Notes under the pieces: generated by a model
The model's database searches: none
Seen by the model: the letters and a program-made list of their open reading frames with translations, nothing else
What the model was told of the DNA's origin: nothing
Part shown: positions 1 through 10,702 of the stretch, piece by piece
Layout of the letters: every line of letters begins with the position of its first letter
How positions within the stretch are numbered: position 1 is the first letter of the stretch
Assembly (NCBI GenBank): GCA_040388625.1
Contig: JAZKBK010000001.1
Coordinates: 124,001 to 188,000, forward strand
Reading direction: 5' to 3'
From: Gemmatimonadota bacterium
GTDB lineage: Bacteria > Gemmatimonadota > Gemmatimonadetes > Gemmatimonadales > Gemmatimonadaceae
Length of the DNA: 64,000 nucleotides
Made by a program: the position numbers and the translations under genes

Positions 1-41
1 CACTGGTGCGTAATACGTGTGCTGGTATACGATTAGACCGG

Positions 42-401
42 ATGCTCAGACCGACCCAAAGCGTACGACGTGGTAGCGGCCGGTGGGGATGGCGGCTGGC
101 AGCTGTGCTGGCCATTCTTGCCCAATGCTGGATAGCGGTGGCTCCTCTCTCCGAGAGCCGCGGCTTTGGGCTGTCCGCGCACGTCGAGGCGGCGGGAAAC
201 CATCGGGGTCACTTCACGCACGACGCTGCGTCGTGTGCCGCGTGCTCGGTGCTGTCGCTCCACGCGTTGAGCTCGCATCCGGCCGCGGTCCCCGTGCCGC
301 CAGGCCAGCCCGTCTTCAGGCCGGTCACTACCGCTGAAGGGTGGATCGAAGCACTTCAGCTCAAATCGACCCAGCCCAGGGCGCCTCCCGCGTCTGTGTA
401 G
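42..401 (+). CDS. Small membrane-anchored or secreted His/Cys protein, DUF2946-like
   Basis: Unrecognised in detail. After a basic N-terminus there is one hydrophobic segment (about residues 17-34), then a His-rich stretch (HVEA..GNHRGHFTHD) that runs straight into CAAC. A histidine run followed by CxxC resembles DUF2946-type small proteins often found near metal genes; that assignment is from memory. The same pattern recurs in the protein at 6079-6459 on the far side of czcCBA, so the two look like paralogues. An in-frame GTG at 6 would add 12 residues; the ATG at 42 was chosen because it places the hydrophobic segment where the paralogue has it. Inferred role: periplasmic metal binding or sensing for the efflux operon 74 nt downstream. 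Confidence 0.6.
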   Translation: MLRPTQSVRRGSGRWGWRLAAVLAILAQCWIAVAPLSESRGFGLSAHVEAAGNHRGHFTHDAASCAACSVLSLHALSSHPAAVPVPPGQPVFRPVTTAEGWIEALQLKSTQPRAPPASV

Positions 402-475
402 TCCACGTCCGGTAGTCCGGGTGCATTTCCGCGCCCGTGCGCATGCCGGCGTGTCAACACAACGAGAGAGATCGC

Positions 476-1747
476 ATGTCCCCAGCACGCTGGACTGCGC
501 TGCTCGCACTTTGTGCAAGCAGCGCGTCTGCCCAACAACGTCCTGATACACTTCTACTGACTCGTGCGGCCGCGATCCAGCTCGCGCTCGAGCGCAACCC
601 GCAGCTCGACGTTGCGCGCGAGCAGATCGCGGAGCTTCGCGCAGCCAAGGTGCAGGCTGTGGCCATTCCCGATCCGGCACTCACGGCGTCGCTGGATGGG
701 CAGCCCGGCCTGTTCCGCTCCTCGGCTACCGGCCAGAAAAATGTCGGTGCAACGCTGCAGGTTCCGTTTCCCGACAAGTTCCGCTTGCGCGGCAACGTCG
801 CGGGTGCCGACATACGCAACGCGCAGGCGAACTACACTGCGCTCCAGCGTCAGATTGCTGCCCTCACCGCCGAGCAATACGATTCGCTGTTGGTCGCGCT
901 GCGACATCGAACGGATTTTACCGAAGCACAGACGCTCGCAAACGACTTTCTCAAGCGCACTCAGGCGCGGTTCGATGCCGGGACGGCACCGCGGCTGGAC
1001 GTCATCAAGGCGCAGGTGGACGTTGCCGCGGCGACCAACGATCTGATATCGAACGAGCGCGCGATTGCGAACGCATCGTCGGGATTGAATCGCTTCATCG
1101 GGCGGCAGCTTGGCGCTCCAATTGTAGCGACGGATTCGCTGACGGTGCCTCCGTCGCTCCCCTCGGTCGATGTGCTCGAGCGCGAGGCGTTGAATGCGCG
1201 GCCAGAGCTCGCGGGTCTCATGGCGCAGCGCAAGGGAGCACACTCCGCCACCACTCTCGCGCGTGAATTCTGGCTTCCCGATCTCACACTCGGCGTTTCG
1301 CGCGACGTTTCAGGCAACAGCGGGCCTGGCGTTTTCTCCACCGGGCTCGCATTCCCGCTTCCCTTGCTGTTCTGGCAGCATACGAAAGGCGAGGTGAGCC
1401 AGTCGCTGCATTTCGAGCGCGAGTTGGCCGCATCTTACCGCGATCTCGAAGCGCAGGTTGGCCAGGACGTGCGAAACGCATATACCGCGGCGAGCACGTC
1501 GCTACGGCAGGCGATCTACATACGTGATGAGTTGCTTCCGGCAGCACGTGAGGCGTACCGGTCGACCGCCGCGAGCTATGCAATTGGCGGATCGTCCGCG
1601 TTCGAAGTCATCGACGCACGCCGCACTCTGCTCGCTGCGCAGAGTCAGTATTCCGACGCACTGGCCGCGGCCAACACGTCCAGATCCGATCTGGAACGAG
1701 CTGTAAGTGTGCCACTCGAAACCATCGCTTCCGGACCGAACCAATGA
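476..1747 (+). CDS. czcC: TolC-family outer-membrane efflux protein (CzcC-like)
   Basis: Outer-membrane channel of a tripartite heavy-metal efflux pump. The protein is 423 residues and starts with a Sec signal peptide ending near SASA-QQ; long alpha-helical repeats rich in Ala, Gln and Arg follow, as in the two OEP repeats of the TolC family. The ATG at 476 is preferred over an upstream ATG at 437 because it sits behind AACGAGAGAGATC (GAGAGA as ribosome-binding site) and gives a clean signal peptide. Its TGA overlaps the start of the adaptor gene (ATGA at 1744-1747), so the pump genes are translationally coupled. The metal specificity cannot be told from this subunit. Confidence 0.88.
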   Translation: MSPARWTALLALCASSASAQQRPDTLLLTRAAAIQLALERNPQLDVAREQIAELRAAKVQAVAIPDPALTASLDGQPGLFRSSATGQKNVGATLQVPFPDKFRLRGNVAGADIRNAQANYTALQRQIAALTAEQYDSLLVALRHRTDFTEAQTLANDFLKRTQARFDAGTAPRLDVIKAQVDVAAATNDLISNERAIANASSGLNRFIGRQLGAPIVATDSLTVPPSLPSVDVLEREALNARPELAGLMAQRKGAHSATTLAREFWLPDLTLGVSRDVSGNSGPGVFSTGLAFPLPLLFWQHTKGEVSQSLHFERELAASYRDLEAQVGQDVRNAYTAASTSLRQAIYIRDELLPAAREAYRSTAASYAIGGSSAFEVIDARRTLLAAQSQYSDALAAANTSRSDLERAVSVPLETIASGPNQ

Positions 1748-2892
1748 GCATGAAGTCATTCTGTTTGATTGCTGGCCTCGTACTCCTCTCGGCTTGTGGC
1801 GGGTCGGACGAGTCGGCCAATACCGCGACGCCGGCATCGGCGAAGCCGTCCAACCTCACGCTCACGGCGGAGCAACAGGGGCGGATTCACCTGGACACCA
1901 TTGCGCCGTCGAAGTTCTATTCCAGCGTATCGACAACCGGTACAGTCGCGTTCAATGGTGACAGATCGACGCAGGTGCTGTCACCGGTTTCGGGCCCCGT
2001 AACCAGGCTGCTCGTGCAGCCTGGCACCGTCGTCGCGCGCGGCGCCGCACTGGCCACGGTTTCGTCTCCGGACTTCGCAGCGGCAGTCGGTAGCTATCGC
2101 AAGGCGGTTGCGTCGGCGACGAACCTTCAGCGAATTGCCGACCAGGACGCGCAACTCTTCAAGACCGATGCGCTGTCGCGCCGCGATCTCGAGCAGGCCC
2201 AGACCGACGCCGCGTCTGCAATCGCTGACCGGGAGGCGGCGCTCGAGCAGATAAGATCGCTCGGCATCGATCCCGCTGTGATCGCGAACGCGACGAACGG
2301 GGGCAGTACCGGAGCGATACCGGGTGTAATTCGTGCGCCGATTGCCGGAACGGTAGTCGAGCGGCTCATCACACCAGGACAGCTGCTCCAGGCAGGGGCA
2401 ACGCCAGCGTTCACAATTGCGGACCTGTCGACTGTGTGGGTAATGGCGAACGTGTTCGAGTCCGACCTCGCCAGCGTGCACAAGGGCGAGCACGTGACGG
2501 TGACGAGCGCCGTGAGTCCGACGCCATTCGACGGCACTGTCGACTACGTGGGGGCGCTGGTCGATTCCTCCACCCGCGCGACATCCGTGCGTCTCGTGGT
2601 GCGCAACCGCGACGATCTGCTCAAGCGGGACATGTACGTGAACGTCGCGATCAGGGCGAATCGCCAGAAGTCGGGAATCCTGGCACCTGTAAGCGCCGTG
2701 CTTCGCGACGATCAGAACCTTCCTTTCGTCTTTGTCGCGACCGGCAATTCGCCCAACGTGCAGTATGCGCGGCGCAGCGTCACACTTGGCGCGCGTATCG
2801 GCGATGACTACGAGGTACTGTCTGGCCTGAATGCCGGCGATCGCGTGGTTGCAGAGGGCGCGTTGTTCCTGCAGTTCGCGGAGAGCCTGTGA
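1744..2892 (+). CDS. czcB: RND efflux periplasmic adaptor lipoprotein (CzcB-like)
   Basis: Membrane-fusion protein linking the inner-membrane RND pump to the outer-membrane channel. The 382-residue protein begins with a lipoprotein signal (lipobox LLSAC, then GGSDES), so it is probably anchored by lipid. A split biotinyl/lipoyl-like domain (PVSGPVTRLLVQPGTVV and later APIAGTVVERLITPGQ) flanks a helical hairpin rich in Ala, Asp and Gln, followed by beta-barrel and membrane-proximal domains. It overlaps the channel gene by 4 nt upstream (ATGA) and the pump gene by 4 nt downstream (GTGA). No His-rich metal-binding N-terminus of the kind found in some CzcB proteins is visible. Confidence 0.88.
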   Translation: MSMKSFCLIAGLVLLSACGGSDESANTATPASAKPSNLTLTAEQQGRIHLDTIAPSKFYSSVSTTGTVAFNGDRSTQVLSPVSGPVTRLLVQPGTVVARGAALATVSSPDFAAAVGSYRKAVASATNLQRIADQDAQLFKTDALSRRDLEQAQTDAASAIADREAALEQIRSLGIDPAVIANATNGGSTGAIPGVIRAPIAGTVVERLITPGQLLQAGATPAFTIADLSTVWVMANVFESDLASVHKGEHVTVTSAVSPTPFDGTVDYVGALVDSSTRATSVRLVVRNRDDLLKRDMYVNVAIRANRQKSGILAPVSAVLRDDQNLPFVFVATGNSPNVQYARRSVTLGARIGDDYEVLSGLNAGDRVVAEGALFLQFAESL

Positions 2893-5800
2893 CCCCTTCC
2901 GATCCCACTGGACCATCCGACGGGTCCGGCGCAGACCATCCGCGCAGCGCGATGCCACAGATAGAGGAGCCGGGTTCGATGGAGGGCGCGGCACAATCGT
3001 TCGTTAATCGCGTCGTAGGCGCGTCGCTGGCACAGCCACTGTTGACCGGAATTCTCGCGGTGGTGTTGATAGGAGTCGGTGCGTGGTCCTTTTCCCGACT
3101 TCCGGTCGACGCGTATCCCGACGTCTCGCCTCCGATGGTCGAGATCATATCTCAGTGGCCGGGCCACGCTGCTGAAGAGGTGGAGCGACTGATCACAGTA
3201 CCGGTCGAAGCTGGCATGAACGGCACGCCGAATCTGAAAGTCATGCGATCGGTCTCGCTGTACGGCCTGTCCGATGTGACGATGACGTTCGACGATCGGA
3301 CCGACACGTATTTCGCACGGCAGCAGGTGTTCGAGCGCATACCGGATCTGAGCCTGCCTGACGGTGTGTCGTCGTCCGTGGCCCCGATGTCGTCGCCATC
3401 GGGGTTGGTGTATCGATACGTGGTCCAGAGTCCGGACCGCACACCGATGCAGCTCAAGAACATTCAGGACTGGATTCTCGAAAAACAGTACAAGGCCGTG
3501 CCTGGTGTCGCCGACATGTCGTCGCTTGGCGGCCAGACGATGCAGTACCAGGTGCTGGTCGATCCCACCAAGCTTGCAGGGGCCGGACTGAACGTGTCCA
3601 CTCTGGCGAACGCGCTTGGGAACAACAACGGGAACGCAGGCGGCGGCTTCTACTCCGAGGGCGGACAGTTTTATTACGTTCGCGGACTCGGTCGAATCAA
3701 CACGCTGGAGGACATCGCAAACACCGTGGTCGCCGTGCAGAACGGAACGCCGGTGCTGGTGAAGGACGTCGGATCTGTCGAGATCGGTTATGCGCCGCGG
3801 CTCGGTCAGTTCGGCTTCAACGACCAGAACGACGCTGTGGAAGGCGTGATCCTGATGCGCACCGGCGAGCAGGCGCAGACGGTACTCAAGCGCGTCGAAC
3901 AGAAGACGAACGAGCTCAATACAAGAATTCTTCCCAAGGACGTCAAGGTCGTCCCGTTCTACGATCGCAGCGATCTCATACAGCTCACGACCAAGACGGT
4001 GGAGGACAATCTCCTCCGCGGCATCGTTCTGGTAGTGGTGATCCTGATCTTCTTCCTGTACGACATCCGCTCGGGGCTCATCGTCGCGGTGTCGATACCG
4101 CTGGCGTTGATGTTTGCGTTCATCTGCCTGGATCTCAAGGGGATCCCGGCGAACCTGCTGTCGATCGGAGCGATCGACTTTGGAATTCTCGTCGATGGCG
4201 CCGTGGTGATGGTCGAGAACATCCACCGGCAACTCGCACGACGACACGGCACCGCGTATGACATAAAGACGGTGATTACTGAAGCTGCCGCGGAAGTGGA
4301 TCGTCCAATCGTGTACGCGATAGCTGTAATTATCGCAGGCTTCTCGCCCATCTACGTCCTTACCGGACCGTCGGGCAGGTTGTTCAAGCCGATGGCCGAT
4401 ACCACGATATTTGCACTGATCGGATCGTTGCTTGTGACGATCACGCTGCTTCCAGTGGTGTGCGCGGTGGTGTTGCGCGGCGGAGTGAAGGAACGCCGGA
4501 ATGCGACCTTCGAATGGATTCTCCTGCAGTACAGGCGTGGCCTGGAATGGAGTCTCCAGCACGCGAAGATCGTGCTCTGGGGATCGATTGTGATCGGTGT
4601 GGCGTGTTTGCTGCTGATTACGCGCATCGGCGGCGAGTTCATGCCCAAGCTGGACGAGGGCGCGCTCTGGGTTCGCGCGACGATGCCGTACACGATCTCG
4701 TTCGAGGAGTCATCGAAGATCGTCCCGCAGATAAGGGCGATCATCAAGTCGTTCCCCGAAGTTACACTGGTAGCCTCCGAACACGGCCGCCCGGATGACG
4801 GAACCGACGCAACGGGATTCTTCAACGCTGAATTCTACGTGGGACTCAAGCCGTATGGAGAGTGGCACGGCAAGTATCACACGAAACCCGAGCTGATCGC
4901 GGCGATCGACAAGAAGCTGCGGGTCTATCCCGGAATCACGTTCAACTACACTCAGCCGGCAGAAGATGCCGTGGACGAAGCCGAAACGGGCCTCAAGAGC
5001 TCGCTCGACGCAAAGATATTCGGGACTGATCTGAAAGTTCTGCAGGAGCGGGGAACAGAGATCAAGAAGGTGCTCGATCAGGTGCGCGGTATCACTCAGG
5101 TTACGCTTGTCCAGGAGCTGGGCCAGCCTGCGCTGACGGTAACCGCGGATCGCGCAAAGATGGCGCGCTACGGCCTCAACGTCTCGGATGTGAACGGGCT
5201 TATCGAGGCCGCCGTCGGCGGCGCAGCGGCAACGCAGGTCGTGCAGGGAGAGCAGTTGTACGATCTCGTAGTGCGGCTGCAGCCACAGTTCCGCGAGACA
5301 GCCGACGAGATCGGCAACATTCTCATCGCGACGCCGAGTGGCGCGCAGATCCCGCTTCGTGAGGTGACGACGCTCAAGATCGACAATGGTGCGTCGTTCA
5401 TTTACCGACAGGACAACTCGCGCTACATCGGTTTGCAGTATTCGGTGACCGGTCGAGATCTGGCCGGCGCAGTGGATGACGCGCGAGCGCAGGTTGAGCG
5501 CAAGGTGAAGCTGCCGCCCGGATATTCCATAGTCTGGGGTGGGGAGTTCGAAGAGTACACGGCTTCGCGTCGTCAGCTGCAGATAGTCCTGCCGCTGACG
5601 CTCGCGGTGATTTTCATCCTGCTCTTCGCGTTGTATCGGAATTTCAAGTTTCCATTCATCACAGTCGTCGGCGTGCTGTTGTCGGCACCGCTGGGCGGGT
5701 TGGTGGCATTGTGGATATCGGGAACACCGTTCTCGGTATCATCCGGAATCGGCTTCCTCGCGTTGTTCGGTGTATCAGTGCAGACGGCGGTGGTCTACAT

Positions 5801-6077
5801 TTCGTACGCCAATGAGCTGAGGCTTGGCGGGCTTGGGATCTCCGAAGCGACGCTGGATGCTGCGTTGCTACGGCTGCGACCGATCATGATGACCGCGCTA
5901 GTTGCCGCGCTGGGCCTGCTTCCTGCAGCCTTTTCTACCGGAGTGGGATCCGATTCCCAACGCCCATTCGCGATGGTGATCGTGGGCGGCCTCTTTTCGC
6001 GTCTTCTGCTGAGTGTGTTCCTGATGCCGGTATTGTACCTGATGGTATCGCGCCAAAACGACGAACTGCACGTCTAG
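2889..6077 (+). CDS. czcA: Heavy-metal RND efflux pump (CzcA/CusA family)
   Basis: Inner-membrane proton/metal antiporter of 1062 residues, the usual size for the HME-RND family. The transmembrane-4 signature DFGILVDGAVVMVEN has the spaced D...D...E residues (positions 0, 6 and 13 of the motif) that carry protons and cations in CzcA, which separates it from drug-exporting HAE-RND pumps. Paired periplasmic pore domains and twelve predicted membrane segments are evident, the last ones around FGVSVQTAVVYISYANE. It starts with GTG overlapping the adaptor stop (GTGA). A hydrophilic N-terminus of about 45 residues precedes the first membrane segment, which is longer than usual. The exact metal (Co/Zn/Cd, Ni, or Cu/Ag) is not determined. 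Confidence 0.92.
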   Translation: MTPSDPTGPSDGSGADHPRSAMPQIEEPGSMEGAAQSFVNRVVGASLAQPLLTGILAVVLIGVGAWSFSRLPVDAYPDVSPPMVEIISQWPGHAAEEVERLITVPVEAGMNGTPNLKVMRSVSLYGLSDVTMTFDDRTDTYFARQQVFERIPDLSLPDGVSSSVAPMSSPSGLVYRYVVQSPDRTPMQLKNIQDWILEKQYKAVPGVADMSSLGGQTMQYQVLVDPTKLAGAGLNVSTLANALGNNNGNAGGGFYSEGGQFYYVRGLGRINTLEDIANTVVAVQNGTPVLVKDVGSVEIGYAPRLGQFGFNDQNDAVEGVILMRTGEQAQTVLKRVEQKTNELNTRILPKDVKVVPFYDRSDLIQLTTKTVEDNLLRGIVLVVVILIFFLYDIRSGLIVAVSIPLALMFAFICLDLKGIPANLLSIGAIDFGILVDGAVVMVENIHRQLARRHGTAYDIKTVITEAAAEVDRPIVYAIAVIIAGFSPIYVLTGPSGRLFKPMADTTIFALIGSLLVTITLLPVVCAVVLRGGVKERRNATFEWILLQYRRGLEWSLQHAKIVLWGSIVIGVACLLLITRIGGEFMPKLDEGALWVRATMPYTISFEESSKIVPQIRAIIKSFPEVTLVASEHGRPDDGTDATGFFNAEFYVGLKPYGEWHGKYHTKPELIAAIDKKLRVYPGITFNYTQPAEDAVDEAETGLKSSLDAKIFGTDLKVLQERGTEIKKVLDQVRGITQVTLVQELGQPALTVTADRAKMARYGLNVSDVNGLIEAAVGGAAATQVVQGEQLYDLVVRLQPQFRETADEIGNILIATPSGAQIPLREVTTLKIDNGASFIYRQDNSRYIGLQYSVTGRDLAGAVDDARAQVERKVKLPPGYSIVWGGEFEEYTASRRQLQIVLPLTLAVIFILLFALYRNFKFPFITVVGVLLSAPLGGLVALWISGTPFSVSSGIGFLALFGVSVQTAVVYISYANELRLGGLGISEATLDAALLRLRPIMMTALVAALGLLPAAFSTGVGSDSQRPFAMVIVGGLFSRLLLSVFLMPVLYLMVSRQNDELHV

Positions 6078-6078
6078 C

Positions 6079-6459
6079 GTGCGGTTTCGGATGACGGCAA
6101 CTGGCGCAGGCGCGCGCGGGCGGTCGCGGGGACTGAGAGTCTTCGCGCTCGCCTTCGCGTTGCTGCAGATCGGCCTTCAGGGAACGTTTGCGGTCAGCGA
6201 CGGCTACGAGCAGCAGGCCAGCTCGCACATCGCGCCCGTTCACGCCGAGATACCGGGAAACCACCACCATCGACTGCACGACAGCGACTGCGTTGTCTGT
6301 CACGTCCTTGCGAGCGGTTCGACCGTGCCACCGCGTGCGGTTCCCGCATGGATCGGGGCGGAACGTGTTTCGGCTACGCCGCCGACCGAGATGGGTGCGC
6401 GTCCCTATGCCATCGTTGCCGGCTCCAGGCTCGCCCGTGCGCCGCCGGTGAAAGTGTGA
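6079..6459 (+). CDS. Small membrane-anchored or secreted His/Cys protein, paralogue of 42-401
   Basis: A 126-residue protein starting one base after the czcA stop. It has a basic N-terminus, one hydrophobic segment (about residues 20-40), then HIAPVHAEIPGNHHHRLHD and a CVVC motif directly after (HDSDCVVCHVL). The layout (membrane segment, GNH, HD, CxxC) matches the protein at 42-401. The GTG start at 6079 or the ATG at 6091 are both possible; neither has a good ribosome-binding site, so translation may depend on coupling with czcA. It is probably the last gene of the efflux operon. Inferred role: periplasmic metal binding, sensing or delivery. The family name (DUF2946-like) is tentative. Confidence 0.6.
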   Translation: MRFRMTATGAGARGRSRGLRVFALAFALLQIGLQGTFAVSDGYEQQASSHIAPVHAEIPGNHHHRLHDSDCVVCHVLASGSTVPPRAVPAWIGAERVSATPPTEMGARPYAIVAGSRLARAPPVKV

Positions 6460-6465
6460 TCTGAA

Positions 6466-6485
6466 GGCGGAGGTGAGCCTCCGCC
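6466..6485 (+). promoter_or_regulatory. Hairpin 1 upstream of the TonB receptor
   Basis: Perfect 8-bp stem GGCGGAGG/CCTCCGCC with TGAG loop, 6 bases after the stop of the small His/Cys gene. No T-tract follows, so it is a weak candidate for a terminator; it may be an RNA stability or attenuation element. Confidence 0.4.
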
Positions 6486-6497
6486 ATGGATTTACGT

Positions 6498-6518
6498 CGC
6501 CGCCACTTTCTGGCGGCG
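6498..6518 (+). promoter_or_regulatory. Hairpin 2 upstream of the TonB receptor
   Basis: Perfect 8-bp stem CGCCGCCA/TGGCGGCG with a CTTTC loop, ending 26 bases before the ATG at 6545. Together with the hairpin at 6466-6485 it forms a tandem pair in the leader of the receptor gene. It carries no known riboswitch signature that I can recognise. Confidence 0.35.
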
Positions 6519-6544
6519 CGATCACACTATCGCATTCAAAATTC

Positions 6545-8956
6545 ATGTCGAATCAACGCATTTCAGCGCGCGTGGTGGCGTGTGCGCTCGCCCTGGCCGC
6601 GTGCGTCACAGCCGTTCCAGCGCACGCTTTCTCACTGTCATCCGTCGCGCCAGTCACCGATGCCGGCATCGGCCCCACGGCACGTGGCGATCTCACCGGA
6701 ACAGTAACCGACAGCGCATCCGGTCAACCGCTTCCCAGCGCGGAGGTGAGCGTGATGCAGGGCGGCCGCATCGTGCTCACAGCAAACACGGATGCTTTCG
6801 GCCGGTACATCGCGCACGACCTTCCGTCCGGCACGTACACCATCAACGTCCGCCTGATCGGCTTTCGGATTCAATCGCGGGAAATAGCGGTTGGAACATC
6901 GGGCGACATCCGGGCTGACTTCCGATTGCCGGTGGCGGCGCTCAGCCTCTCGTCCGTGGCGGTGACAGCCGCGATTCCACTGGCGATCGATACAAGATCC
7001 GGCGATCAGCGCTTCAAGCAGGACTCATATCACGGCGCGCCGACCAACACCACATCGCAGATCCTTCAGCAGTCGATTGCCGGCGCCGCTCGTGCACCGA
7101 CGGGTGAGGTGCATATCCGTGGACAGCACGCCGAGTACACCTATTATGTCGATGGCGTGCCCGTGCCTGCTGGTATATCCGGCAGCCTCAACGAGCTGTT
7201 CGATCCCAGCATCGTGAACCAGATCGATTTTCAGACAGGCGGCTGGGATGCCGAGTATGGGAACAAGAATGCCGCCGTTGTGAACGTGCAGACGCGCATT
7301 CCTGTCGGCGGATTTCATAGCACCATCTCCGGGTATGGCGGCTCGTTCAACACGAACGGCGAGGGGATCACGGCGAGCACGAACAGCGGCCCGTGGGGAT
7401 TCTTCGTTTCAGGCAGTCGCAAGTCCACCGACATGCGACTGGAGCCCGTCGTTTTCGATACGGCGGGCGACAAGGTAGTCAACTTCCACAACCATGGAGA
7501 GGATTACTCCGGGTTTGCGAAAGTGCAGTACACCCCGAACGCATCCAACGTGTTCGACCTCGACGCGAGCCTATCGACGACGCGTTTCCAGGTTCCGTAT
7601 GATTCGACCGGTAACGTCGTACTTGATGACCATCAGCGTGATCGCAATGCGTTCGTCAACCTCGGCTATCGTCACATCTTCGGCGCTGACACGACCGCCG
7701 GAGTCGAAGGCGGTGCTACTACGCAGTCTCGCGTGGCGGAGTTGTTCGTTGGAGGCTTCGTGCGATCCGGCGGGTTGAAGTACATACCGGGCGTTGGCGA
7801 TTCCGCGCAATTCGTGTTCTTCCCGGATACGCTCAATGCGTACAACCTGCGCGAAAATCGTAATTTCACGACGTACGGCATCAAGGCCGACTACACCGTG
7901 CATCCTGCGCGTGAACTGGAATTCAAGTTCGGGACCCTGAGCCAGTACACGACGGGGCACGAGGATTTTGTCACTACGACGACCTCTGGTGTGTTCGGTC
8001 CTGCATCCAATTCGAATCTCAAGGGATACGATGTCGGTGGATACGCCCAGACCTCGTACTCGCCAGTCGAGCGATTCGAGATCAGGGCAGGCGTGCGCTA
8101 CGACGCGCACAATGCGCCTTTCGCCGGAACGCAGACGCAGCTGAGCCCACGCATCCGGCTCAACTTCTTTTCGGACCCTGGCAATACATTCTACTTGTAC
8201 TATGGACGGCTCTTCGTTCCGACCAACGTCGAGGATCTCCGCGCTATCACGAGTGTCGCGCAGCAAGGGGTAACTGCCGCACCGACGCTGCCGGAGCGTG
8301 ACAACTTCTATGAGGCCGGCTACATCCATCGTTTCCCGTTCGGGCTCGTATCCAAGCTTGCGGCCTACCACAAGCAGAGCACGCCCGGCATCGATGACAA
8401 CACCGTGCCGGGTTCGGCGATCGTCACGTCGGTCAACATCGCCCATGTTCGCATCACCGGGCTCGAGACCGTGCAGGACTTCCGTCCACCCGGTCCATTC
8501 TCGGCGTACCTCAACCTCGCGCTCAATCATGCTTACGGCCAGGGACCCATCACCGGCGGCTTTTTCCCGACCGGTACGCCGCAGGGATACTTCGATCTGG
8601 ACCACGATCAGCGGCTTTCCGGCACGATCAGCGTGACGTATGCACCGGGTCACTTCTACACCAGCTACACCGGTACGTATGGATCGGGTCTCACGAACGG
8701 GCTCCAGCCGGCGGATTGCAGCTGCTCGTACGGCACGGGATTGTTCGACTTCAACAAGGGAACCCATGTGAGCCCGAGCTACATCTCTAATGCGAGCGTC
8801 GGCTATTCGTTCGCCGTGGGCGGCTCGTTGGTTCGGCCGGAACTGTATGTCGATAACCTCTTCGACAAGAAATATCTGTTGAAGGGTGCATTCTTCAGCG
8901 GCGCTTCCGTCGGGCGCCCGCGCAGCATCCAGCTGCGCGTCAACGTCGCGCAGTAG
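6545..8956 (+). CDS. TonB-dependent outer-membrane receptor with carboxypeptidase-regulatory-like N-domain
   Basis: Active-transport outer-membrane receptor of 803 residues. A Sec signal peptide (MSNQRISARVVACALALAAC, cut near AHA-FS) precedes a carboxypeptidase-D-regulatory-like domain (GTVTDSASGQPLPSAEVSVM, then DAFGRYIAHDLPSGTYTI), a plug domain and a beta-barrel ending in aromatic-rich strands (LYVDNLFDKKYLLKGAFF). The ATG at 6545 was chosen over an in-frame GTG at 6473 because it begins the signal peptide and the upstream stretch contains the two hairpins. It follows czcCBA and the small His/Cys gene, suggesting metal or metallophore uptake, but the substrate is unknown. A large hairpin at 8966-9018 closes the unit. 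Confidence 0.85.
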   Translation: MSNQRISARVVACALALAACVTAVPAHAFSLSSVAPVTDAGIGPTARGDLTGTVTDSASGQPLPSAEVSVMQGGRIVLTANTDAFGRYIAHDLPSGTYTINVRLIGFRIQSREIAVGTSGDIRADFRLPVAALSLSSVAVTAAIPLAIDTRSGDQRFKQDSYHGAPTNTTSQILQQSIAGAARAPTGEVHIRGQHAEYTYYVDGVPVPAGISGSLNELFDPSIVNQIDFQTGGWDAEYGNKNAAVVNVQTRIPVGGFHSTISGYGGSFNTNGEGITASTNSGPWGFFVSGSRKSTDMRLEPVVFDTAGDKVVNFHNHGEDYSGFAKVQYTPNASNVFDLDASLSTTRFQVPYDSTGNVVLDDHQRDRNAFVNLGYRHIFGADTTAGVEGGATTQSRVAELFVGGFVRSGGLKYIPGVGDSAQFVFFPDTLNAYNLRENRNFTTYGIKADYTVHPARELEFKFGTLSQYTTGHEDFVTTTTSGVFGPASNSNLKGYDVGGYAQTSYSPVERFEIRAGVRYDAHNAPFAGTQTQLSPRIRLNFFSDPGNTFYLYYGRLFVPTNVEDLRAITSVAQQGVTAAPTLPERDNFYEAGYIHRFPFGLVSKLAAYHKQSTPGIDDNTVPGSAIVTSVNIAHVRITGLETVQDFRPPGPFSAYLNLALNHAYGQGPITGGFFPTGTPQGYFDLDHDQRLSGTISVTYAPGHFYTSYTGTYGSGLTNGLQPADCSCSYGTGLFDFNKGTHVSPSYISNASVGYSFAVGGSLVRPELYVDNLFDKKYLLKGAFFSGASVGRPRSIQLRVNVAQ

Positions 8957-8965
8957 GGTGTCAGC

Positions 8966-9018
8966 CGCGACCGAATGGGGGAGGGGCGACCGACACGACC
9001 ATTCCCCATTCGGCCGCG
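8966..9018. terminator. Long inverted repeat between convergent genes
   Basis: Arms CGCGACCGAATGGGG (8966-8980) and CCCCATTCGGCCGCG (9004-9018) pair over 15 positions with one mismatch. It lies between the plus-strand receptor and the minus-strand gene ending at 9125, as expected for a shared transcription stop. There is no T-tract. Confidence 0.5.
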
Positions 9019-9124
9019 CCGGCGTCGCCCCAGGCCGCACGATGCTCGAGCTGCACAGCAACTTCACCGACAGCGGGAGGACCGCTACCGAAGACGGCGT
9101 GCAGCCCGCGCGTCATCGAGCTCA

Positions 9125-10702
9125 TCACCGGCCGCCGCTTCTGAGCTCTGGAATCGGATCTCCGTCCGGATAGGCGCGCGCTGGCGGCGAGAGGTTGCCC
9201 GTCCGGCCCACCGCGTAAACCCATACTTCGCGAGGCGACTTTTCGCCTCGTCCGGCAAGGAAGTGCGTCTGCTCCGAGCCAGGAATTATCTGTGTAGTCC
9301 AGCCGGCGGATGTGTGCGCCTGCACGACCCACAGCCACGGGGCCTTTTCTCCGTTGGCTGGATCCATGTCGATCACCATCTCGCCCGATGCAGCGTCGAG
9401 ACGCGGCTGAACGACGGGGCGGCCGGGGGCAATCGAGTCGAGCCATGGTGATGCCGGCACGAGCGCGGGTTGTGCGTAGGTGTCACGCGCCAGGCGCTCG
9501 TCGAGACTGTCCGGATCCTGCATCAACACCTTCATGCTGAACAGAACGTCACCGCTCGCACCGCTCTGGGCGCGTGTGAGGCGGATCTGATCCAGAATCT
9601 CTCGCGCGCCGCGTCCCTTGGGCGCTGTATCCTTCGCAAGCCCGGCATTGAGACCGGCCCAGATGTGGCGCCGGTAGCTGTTCTGTGAGACCCACCACGC
9701 GAGCAGCTGTGAGAAATCCTGTTGCGGCCTGCCAATGGGCCAGTACAACTGCGGTACGAGATAATCGACCCAGCCTTTATTCAGCCACTTGCGCGAGTCC
9801 GCAAAAATTTCCTCGTACGAGTCGAGCCCACGTACGGATGACGGATATCCCGGTCGCCAGATCCCGAACGGACTGATACCGAAACGCACCCAGGGCTTCA
9901 CTGCATGGATCTCGGCGCCGAGGCGTTGCACGAGAGCGTCGACGTTGCTGCGCCGCCAGTCGCTCAGCGACATCGTGCCGCCGCCGCTTGTGTAGCGCTT
10001 GTAAGCGGCGGCGTCGGGGAAGGGAATCGTGCGCCCCGCCCGGTCGGTCTCGCGATACGGATAGAAGTAGTCGTCAACGTGAATCGCGTCGACATCGTAT
10101 CGTCTGGTTACGTCGACGATTGCGCGAACGGTGCGAGCCACGACGGCGGGATCGCTCGGATCCATCCAGAGTTGCGACCCGTAGCGGCGAATCGCTTGCG
10201 GATCGGTACGCGACACGTGCGACGGCGCGACGTCACCGGGACTCGCGGGTTGCAACGCGCGGTAGGGATTGAACCACGCGTGTACCTCGAGGCCACGCGC
10301 GTGCGCCTCCCGCACAACGAAAGCGAGCGGATCGTAGTATGGTTCCGGCGCGCGCCCCATGCTTCCGCTCAGGAACGGTGACCATGGCTCGTGGTCGGAC
10401 TGGTACAGCGCATCGGCTTCCGGGCGCACCTGGAAGATCACCGCATTCAGGTGCATCTCGACCGCGCGATTGAGCAGCTCGATCAGCTCGGCCTGCTGCT
10501 GCCACGTGCTGAGACCGGCGCGCGAAGGCCAGTCCATGTTGTTGACCGTCGCGATCCACACACCACGAAACTCGCGCGATATTGCCGGCGGCAAGCTGTC
10601 CCGACGCGCAGTGGGAGATTGCGCGGCTGAGGTTGCAGCGGCGGCGAAGAATGCGGCTGGAGCCGCCACCTTGCGAAGGAGCGAAAAGAAACAATTTGCC
10701 AT
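9125..10702 (-). CDS. Secreted glycoside hydrolase of the GHL10/DUF187 family
   Basis: A 525-residue protein with a signal peptide (hydrophobic stretch to ATSAAQ). The catalytic-domain start EFRGVWIATVNNMDWPSR, then NAVIFQVRPEADALYQS and HAWFNPYRA, are typical of the GHL10 (DUF187) TIM-barrel family of putative glycoside hydrolases, some of which act on peptidoglycan-derived or other polysaccharides. A C-terminal stretch of about 100 residues looks like a beta-rich accessory domain. It is the last gene of the long minus-strand run, 59 nt after nfo. The substrate is unknown; a role in cell-wall glycan turnover is an inference helped by the envC-like gene two positions upstream. Confidence 0.83.
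   Translation of the reverse strand: MANCFFSLLRKVAAPAAFFAAAATSAAQSPTARRDSLPPAISREFRGVWIATVNNMDWPSRAGLSTWQQQAELIELLNRAVEMHLNAVIFQVRPEADALYQSDHEPWSPFLSGSMGRAPEPYYDPLAFVVREAHARGLEVHAWFNPYRALQPASPGDVAPSHVSRTDPQAIRRYGSQLWMDPSDPAVVARTVRAIVDVTRRYDVDAIHVDDYFYPYRETDRAGRTIPFPDAAAYKRYTSGGGTMSLSDWRRSNVDALVQRLGAEIHAVKPWVRFGISPFGIWRPGYPSSVRGLDSYEEIFADSRKWLNKGWVDYLVPQLYWPIGRPQQDFSQLLAWWVSQNSYRRHIWAGLNAGLAKDTAPKGRGAREILDQIRLTRAQSGASGDVLFSMKVLMQDPDSLDERLARDTYAQPALVPASPWLDSIAPGRPVVQPRLDAASGEMVIDMDPANGEKAPWLWVVQAHTSAGWTTQIIPGSEQTHFLAGRGEKSPREVWVYAVGRTGNLSPPARAYPDGDPIPELRSGGR

Follow-up and report, generated by a model that had tools for sequence, protein, structure and literature searches.

The two small open reading frames that lie before and after the CzcCBA genes of this Gemmatimonadota genome, ORF 1 (uORF1) and ORF 2 (uORF2), are quite probably regulatory uORFs of the CruR kind. 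Each would arrest the ribosome at a C-terminal RAPP motif, sense a metal (most likely zinc) through a CxxC motif and histidines, and by arrest or release set how strongly the genes immediately downstream are expressed. This reading rests on the anatomy and spacing of the two proteins, their conservation, the gene order, the zinc-type cargo and the alternation of cargo at one slot, all of which can be read from the sequences. The first-pass annotation had suggested that the pair senses metal and that import and export are tied together, and the comparisons below lend support to both suggestions.

The locus lies at the start of the window, the whole 64,000-nt stretch of DNA analysed here (Table 1). 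Its six-gene layout was confirmed in substance: czcCBA has a His/Cys-rich small ORF on either side, the two being related, and a TonB receptor comes last. ORF 1 is the first gene of the operon, with a divergent maeB and then pckA upstream; ORF 2 begins one base after the czcA stop and heads the receptor. Downstream of the receptor, the minus strand carries GHL10 and Nfo, an EndoIV-like gene. The czcA product passes the HME-RND profile TIGR00914 (907.6 against a cut-off of 701.45 bits). The receptor had no PDB match by sequence, window positions 1-9300 contained no known RNA family, and sigma-70 promoters and intrinsic terminators were in no excess over shuffled sequences.

Table 1. Features of the locus, in window positions
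Feature	Position	Strand	Remarks
Small ORF 1 = uORF1 (P0002)	42-401	+	ATG; in-frame GTG at 6; stop 399-401
uORF1 features			Basic head, single hydrophobic segment, HVE, H-x-x-H-D-x3-C-x2-C; tail RAPP, ASV
uORF1 Cys codons	234-236, 243-245	+
uORF1 RAPP motif (putative arrest)	378-389	+	AGG GCG CCT CCC; CCTCC = anti-Shine-Dalgarno
Leader uORF1-czcC, 74 nt	402-475	+	SD-like GAGAGAG at 464-470; C>G excess
czcC, OEP outer-membrane channel	476-1747	+	Probable ATG 476; GTG 437 possible; PF02321 1e-45
czcB, periplasmic adaptor	1744-2892	+	Lipobox-like start; PF16576 1.9e-45
czcA, CusA/CzcA-family RND	2889-6077	+	TIGR00914 907.6 bits
Small ORF 2 = uORF2 (P0003)	6079-6459	+	GTG start, ATG 6091 possible; stop 6457-6459
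uORF2 features	RAPP codons 6436-6447	+	HD-x2-C-x2-C, RAPP, then VKV; DUF2946 above cut-off
uORF2 Cys codons	6289-6291, 6298-6300	+
Predicted three-way-junction RNA	6453-6528	+	5' arm begins in final uORF2 codons and stop; z=-2.46
TonB-dependent receptor, CarboxypepD_reg plug extension	Annotated 6473-8956, likely ATG 6545	+	PF13620 3.9e-15, Plug 7.8e-05

The best-conserved feature common to the two small proteins is the ending RAPP-x3-stop, which the first-pass annotation had missed. It stands 44 residues after the CxxC in ORF 1 (PRAPPASV, then the stop) and 45 in ORF 2 (ARAPPVKV, then the stop). Overall the proteins are only about 25% identical, with a local match of 26 aa (46% identity, E=5e-4), and their likeness extends beyond the CxxC to RAPP, the spacing, an H-x-E and the signal region. 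The shared layout proposed earlier holds for the basic head, hydrophobic segment and CxxC and fails for the HDxxxC spacing, which ORF 1 has (H..H-D-x3-C-x2-C) and ORF 2 does not (HD-x2-C-x2-C). ORF 2 scores 28.7 bits with Pfam DUF2946, above the curated cut-off of 23.7, and ORF 1 scores 13.3 bits (E=0.14), below it. A search of both strands of the window for CxxC-x40..48-R[AGP]PP-x0..9-stop returned ORF 1 and ORF 2 alone, and 2.3 million strand-bases of fetched DNA gave 93 distinct matches, all within loci fetched for metal genes with a uORF head or for homologues of such genes, as judged by the locus fetched rather than match by match. Given this uniqueness in the window and the company of the fetched matches, the RAPP ending is not a matter of chance. 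Both ORFs appear to be translated and constrained, since dN/dS is below 1 in each (0.15-0.22 for ORF 1 against orthologues and 0.5 against a near-identical sister; 0.25 for ORF 2).

Homologues of ORF 1 occur in 69 and of ORF 2 in 61 of the 148 genomes of the window's family. Among 60 homologues read in family genomes, 59 carry CxxC-x43..46-R[AGP]PP-x1..7-stop, including BLAST matches whose alignment stopped short of RAPP; in the remaining one, which is read through, the motif is not in frame. The alignment of homologues has invariant positions at H47, H60, C65, C68, R113, P115 and P116, and the linker between CxxC and RAPP is fixed in length and unconserved in sequence. Searching in reverse, from czcC, a CxxC/RAPP uORF was found directly 5' in 29 of 30 family orthologues, the exception having only 239 nt of contig upstream, so that ORF 1 is indeed kept at its place in relatives. 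The first-pass annotation had also considered that the two proteins could be periplasmic chaperones, handing metal to the pump and the receptor or taking it from them, as their predicted export, their richness in His and Cys and their position beside transporters would allow. We now consider this very unlikely: a linker of constant length and unconserved sequence and a near-invariant RAPP end both argue against it, as does the precedent of CruR, whose mature protein was not detected and which did not act in trans (PMC9426467).

CruR (bp2923) of Bordetella pertussis is a DUF2946 uORF encoding a copper-sensing arrest peptide with the order CxxC, 45 residues, RAPP and three residues, in which both the spacing and the RAPP are needed; copper is sensed by the CxxC of the nascent chain, the receptor stays on as long as the ribosome is arrested at RAPP, and Rho terminates once it is released (PMC9426467). 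Its Pro-Pro arrest was demonstrated in vitro (PMC12992588). The ORFs described here share with it the N-terminal export signal, the CxxC, the spacing of 44 or 45 and a RAPP three residues from the stop, and uORF2 likewise heads a TonB receptor. CruR, however, has copper partners and a Rho terminator within an intergenic region of 162 nt (PMC9426467), whereas here the leaders are 74 and 85 nt, the cargo is of zinc type, an RND pump and ZnuAB are also fronted, and two sensors stand in series. Gemmatimonadota are absent from the phyla given for CruR (PMC9426467).

CutF-like proteins, small exported Cys/His proteins with a PP near the C-terminus, most often precede RND outer-membrane channels and, next in frequency, TonB genes, with a stem-loop over the downstream SD; for CutF itself, copper was proposed to increase stalling (PMC9973294). 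Like CutF, both ORF 1 and ORF 2 have a PP within the 15 C-terminal residues and a same-strand gene within 1000 nt; unlike them, CutF has CxxxC and lacks RAPP (PMC9973294). The main text of the CutF paper mentions neither Gemmatimonadota nor zinc (PMC9973294). CzcI of Cupriavidus metallidurans occupies the same place before czcCBA as ORF 1, without the C-terminal proline motif (PMC9973294) that ORF 1 has as RAPP. A CzcI-like protein near the czc operon of a Variovorax plasmid (L191, 1252-1875) has a proline-rich tail of another kind, TPPGLERPARRLAI, not RAPP. An ORF near the czc operon of a Rhodanobacter plasmid (L194, 1668-2057) has the likewise proline-rich tail LLRPPIA, with an annotated gene on the opposite strand. 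No RAPP uORF was found before the plasmid czc operons of Sphingomonas, Spirosoma, Methylobacterium and Sphingobium.

RAPP/RGPP uORFs that precede TonB-related and metal genes have been surveyed across phyla of Gram-negatives (PMC10951233, PMC12992588). RAPP arrest peptides are best known 5' of sec genes (PMC10951233, PMC12992588), and the ORFs could monitor Sec protein export like ApdA and ApdP, the metal motif being incidental. We find this very improbable indeed, because the genes behind are metal transporters rather than sec or yidC and the CxxC is invariant. The kind of sensor is thus already known, since the CutF-like C-terminal PP (PMC9973294) and the RAPP/RGPP uORF survey (PMC12992588) precede this work; the main text of the latter mentions neither zinc, RND, efflux nor ZnuA. 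As far as the literature was searched, three points are new: a regulon of zinc type, an importer and an exporter that replace each other behind one sensor at one slot, and the presence of two sensors in series in one operon.

The metal sensed is probably zinc, a view that we base on the cargo. The TM4 motif DFG-x3-DGA-x3-VEN, which marks divalent-cation pumps, is directly visible in czcA, and among solved structures the zinc pump ZneA comes closest (727 bits, against 555 for CusA). A second family of the phylum has tandem uORFs in operons of the order uORF-porin-ZnuA-ZnuB-uORF-receptor; of five such operons, four carry a window-type receptor (1046-1089 bits) and one a ZnuD-like receptor. Porin-type loci of the window's own family run on into ZnuA and ZnuB in 6/6 tested, and the order uORF-porin-ZnuA-ZnuB was found in all 11 porin loci examined. 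ZnuD-like receptors behind other uORFs score best with the zinc model NF038289 and far more weakly with the copper model. In one f2 genome (L177, 5965-8469) a ZnuD-like receptor rather than the window's type follows uORF-B, so that receptor types also swap behind the sensor.

Alternatively, these could be ordinary CruR copper sensors, in which copper releases the arrest, Rho terminates transcription, and copper is the metal of both pump and receptor. The one relative that has been characterised is specific for copper, zinc acting only moderately on CruR (PMC9426467), CxxC binds Cu, and ORF 2 is above the DUF2946 cut-off. We nevertheless regard copper as unlikely, given the zinc-type cargo described above and the genes behind the inspected uORFs, among which no copper genes were seen, including the CruR-operon partners PCuAC, YcnI, PepSY_TM, ScoC and OprC. 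The Caulobacter operon CC2720-czrCBA-zntA also argues against copper: a DUF2946 gene comes first in this zinc-induced, Zur-activated zinc-efflux RND operon (PMC4176598). CC2720 has the same position before an RND pump as ORF 1, a comparison by position alone, and czrCBA is Zur-activated (PMC4176598).

The arrangement around the pump appears to be two modules in series. In a tree of 58 sensors, two subfamilies separate with 99/100 support. Subfamily I, with ORF 1, comprises 30 heads of czc and 7 of porin-ZnuA operons; subfamily II, with ORF 2, comprises 11 heads of the window-type receptor, 7 of the ZnuD-like receptor, 2 of porin and 1 of czc. ORF 1 and ORF 2 thus belong to two old subfamilies, each heading its own cargo, and are not local duplicates. 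The first-pass annotation had seen a duplicated bracket, and in-place duplication of one gene would indeed account for the common layout and the GNH..H of both ORFs. The tree led us to reject that origin, which has practically no chance of being correct: ORF 2 groups most closely with sensors in front of other receptors and ORF 1 with sensors in front of czcC or ZnuA operons, and in relatives the modules lie apart, each with its own uORF, being divergent in G019 and G147 and convergent in G004. In the sister genome G030, whose pump is 97-98% identical, ORF 2 and its TonB receptor are gone and a 34-nt piece of ORF 2 remains after czcA, a relic from which we conclude that module 2 was deleted there. 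Module 2 lies immediately 3' of czcA with certainty only in G000 and G055.

The cargo behind subfamily I sensors is also exchanged. At a conserved slot between EnvC-Nfo and MaeB-PckA, czcCBA and ZnuA alternate behind these sensors. In the 11 porin-ZnuAB loci, nfo lies beside the cassette in all but one, where it is maeB (L183), and several loci show both flanks; of 12 additional genomes that were fetched, 9 have the czc cassette next to these slot markers. In the window's genus the czc cassette sits in the same slot, inverted relative to the flanks, and ZnuA was not found in the four genomes of that genus. Across 99 family genomes, czcC (37) and ZnuA (28) occur together twice, against 10.5 expected (Fisher 5.9e-5), and this mutual exclusion holds by within-genus permutation (p=0.0017), which ignores kinship inside each genus. 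Co-occurrence of czcC with the receptor in the same 99 genomes is above expectation (17 vs 8.6, p=6e-5). Within one genus, near-identical sensors front czcC (L026) and porin-ZnuAB (L028). It is possible, if somewhat doubtful, that a zinc-sensing arrest uORF is the fixed head of an EnvC-Nfo-[uORF-cargo]-MaeB-PckA slot, whose cargo was repeatedly swapped between porin-ZnuABC and CzcCBA. As importer and exporter share the sign of the predicted RNA coupling, either the sensor polarity would have flipped or CzcCBA would be active in the zinc condition of ZnuABC and not serve detoxification.

The RNA between sensor and cargo suggests how the coupling could work. In leaders of 41-57 nt, the usual pairing partner of the codons from RAPP to the stop is the 25-nt stretch that ends at the ATG and contains the SD. 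On predicted start codons, and with loci that are not mutually independent, a ribosome at RAPP would free the SD by a mean of 3.3 kcal/mol at 28 czc loci, compared with 0.5 when the covered stretch is shuffled; the corresponding pairs of values are 2.7 and 0.5 at porin loci, 1.6 and 0.2 at ZnuD-like loci and 0.7 and 0.2 at receptor loci. Pairing of RAPP codons with the czcC Shine-Dalgarno, the counterpart of the CutF stem-loop, is predicted in most relatives, where it is strong, and is weak in the window: SD freeing in module 1 is 0.2 kcal/mol, and the duplex of tail and leader does not surpass its shuffled controls. Sequestration of the SD in the window leader, which the MFE structure suggests, was accordingly set aside on the accessibility and duplex tests, and the signal is one of the family. 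A compensatory helix between the uORF1 stop and the czcC leader within the genus was likewise discounted, as the registers differ among genomes. The first proline of RAPP is the rare codon CCT in 11/29 czc-type ORFs and 0/11 receptor-type ORFs, against a background of 5%.

A stretch of C>G lies over the uORF end at czc loci (+12.0) and receptor loci (+8.5), compared with -2.1 at window gene ends as control. In the window itself the values are +8.4% for ORF 1, -4.7% for ORF 2 and -2.1% for the control, module 2 being without the bubble. The three-way-junction fold of module 2 (6453-6528) is kept in the relative fen_1247/G055 with a changed hairpin sequence and three double-sided changes in the third helix; with two sequences, and with 65/500 shuffles matching the covariation, this predicted structure is suggestive only.

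From these features we infer a mechanism in which a ribosome would arrest at the RAPP of each uORF while the CxxC and neighbouring His of the nascent chain, about 45 residues back, bind metal, most likely zinc. As modules in series, uORF1 would control czcCBA and uORF2 the TonB receptor. Where the cargo is an exporter or an importer operon, a ribosome stalled at RAPP would block pairing between the RAPP-to-stop codons and the SD, so that stalling means ON. The C-rich stretch may add Rho attenuation, the module being kept on through SD access, antitermination or both. Our guess at the direction is that zinc releases importer modules and stalls the pump module, an uncertain one because the same sensor subfamily fronts importer and exporter. 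Several findings sit poorly with this mechanism. Simple zinc homeostasis does not easily account for one sensor, with one predicted RNA sign, before both importer and exporter, the SD effect in module 1 of the window is small, module 2 is without a C>G bubble, and ORF 1 is below the DUF2946 cut-off.

No riboswitch has been described for copper or zinc (PMC9426467), and the only proven metal-sensing arrest uORF that we found in the literature responds to copper. If true, a zinc counterpart of CruR would add a second metal, and a further phylum, to what nascent chains sense. The near-identical sensors L026 and L028, before an exporter and an importer in different species, constitute a natural experiment on whether the peptide or the RNA sets the polarity. 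Caution is also warranted in annotation, where entering such genes as periplasmic hypothetical proteins may mislead.

RAPP/RGPP ORFs before the same pump also occur in some Desulfobacterota-type and Acidobacteria MAGs. In Deltaproteobacteria MAGs (L134, 4870-5184; L136, 4853-5167; L137, 1218-1535), a different small protein precedes the same pump clade, with an HHDDCPIC-like motif, a second hydrophobic stretch in the linker and the end TRAPPA or ARAPPA; judged from its sequence, it appears to be a second architecture of RAPP uORF for RND pumps. An Acidobacteriia MAG (L142, 6429-6779) has an ORF of the form CLLC...SRGPPAWFPV immediately 5' of the adaptor gene. A contig filed as Phenylobacterium sp. 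palsa_901 (L133), whose pump shares 85% identity with that of the window, may come from a Gemmatimonad and have been mis-binned. Finally, on the minus strand of L179 (G294), two sensor-like ORFs (5160-5750 and 6184-6945) about 0.4 kb apart, with RPPP and RGPP ends, lie before one window-type receptor.
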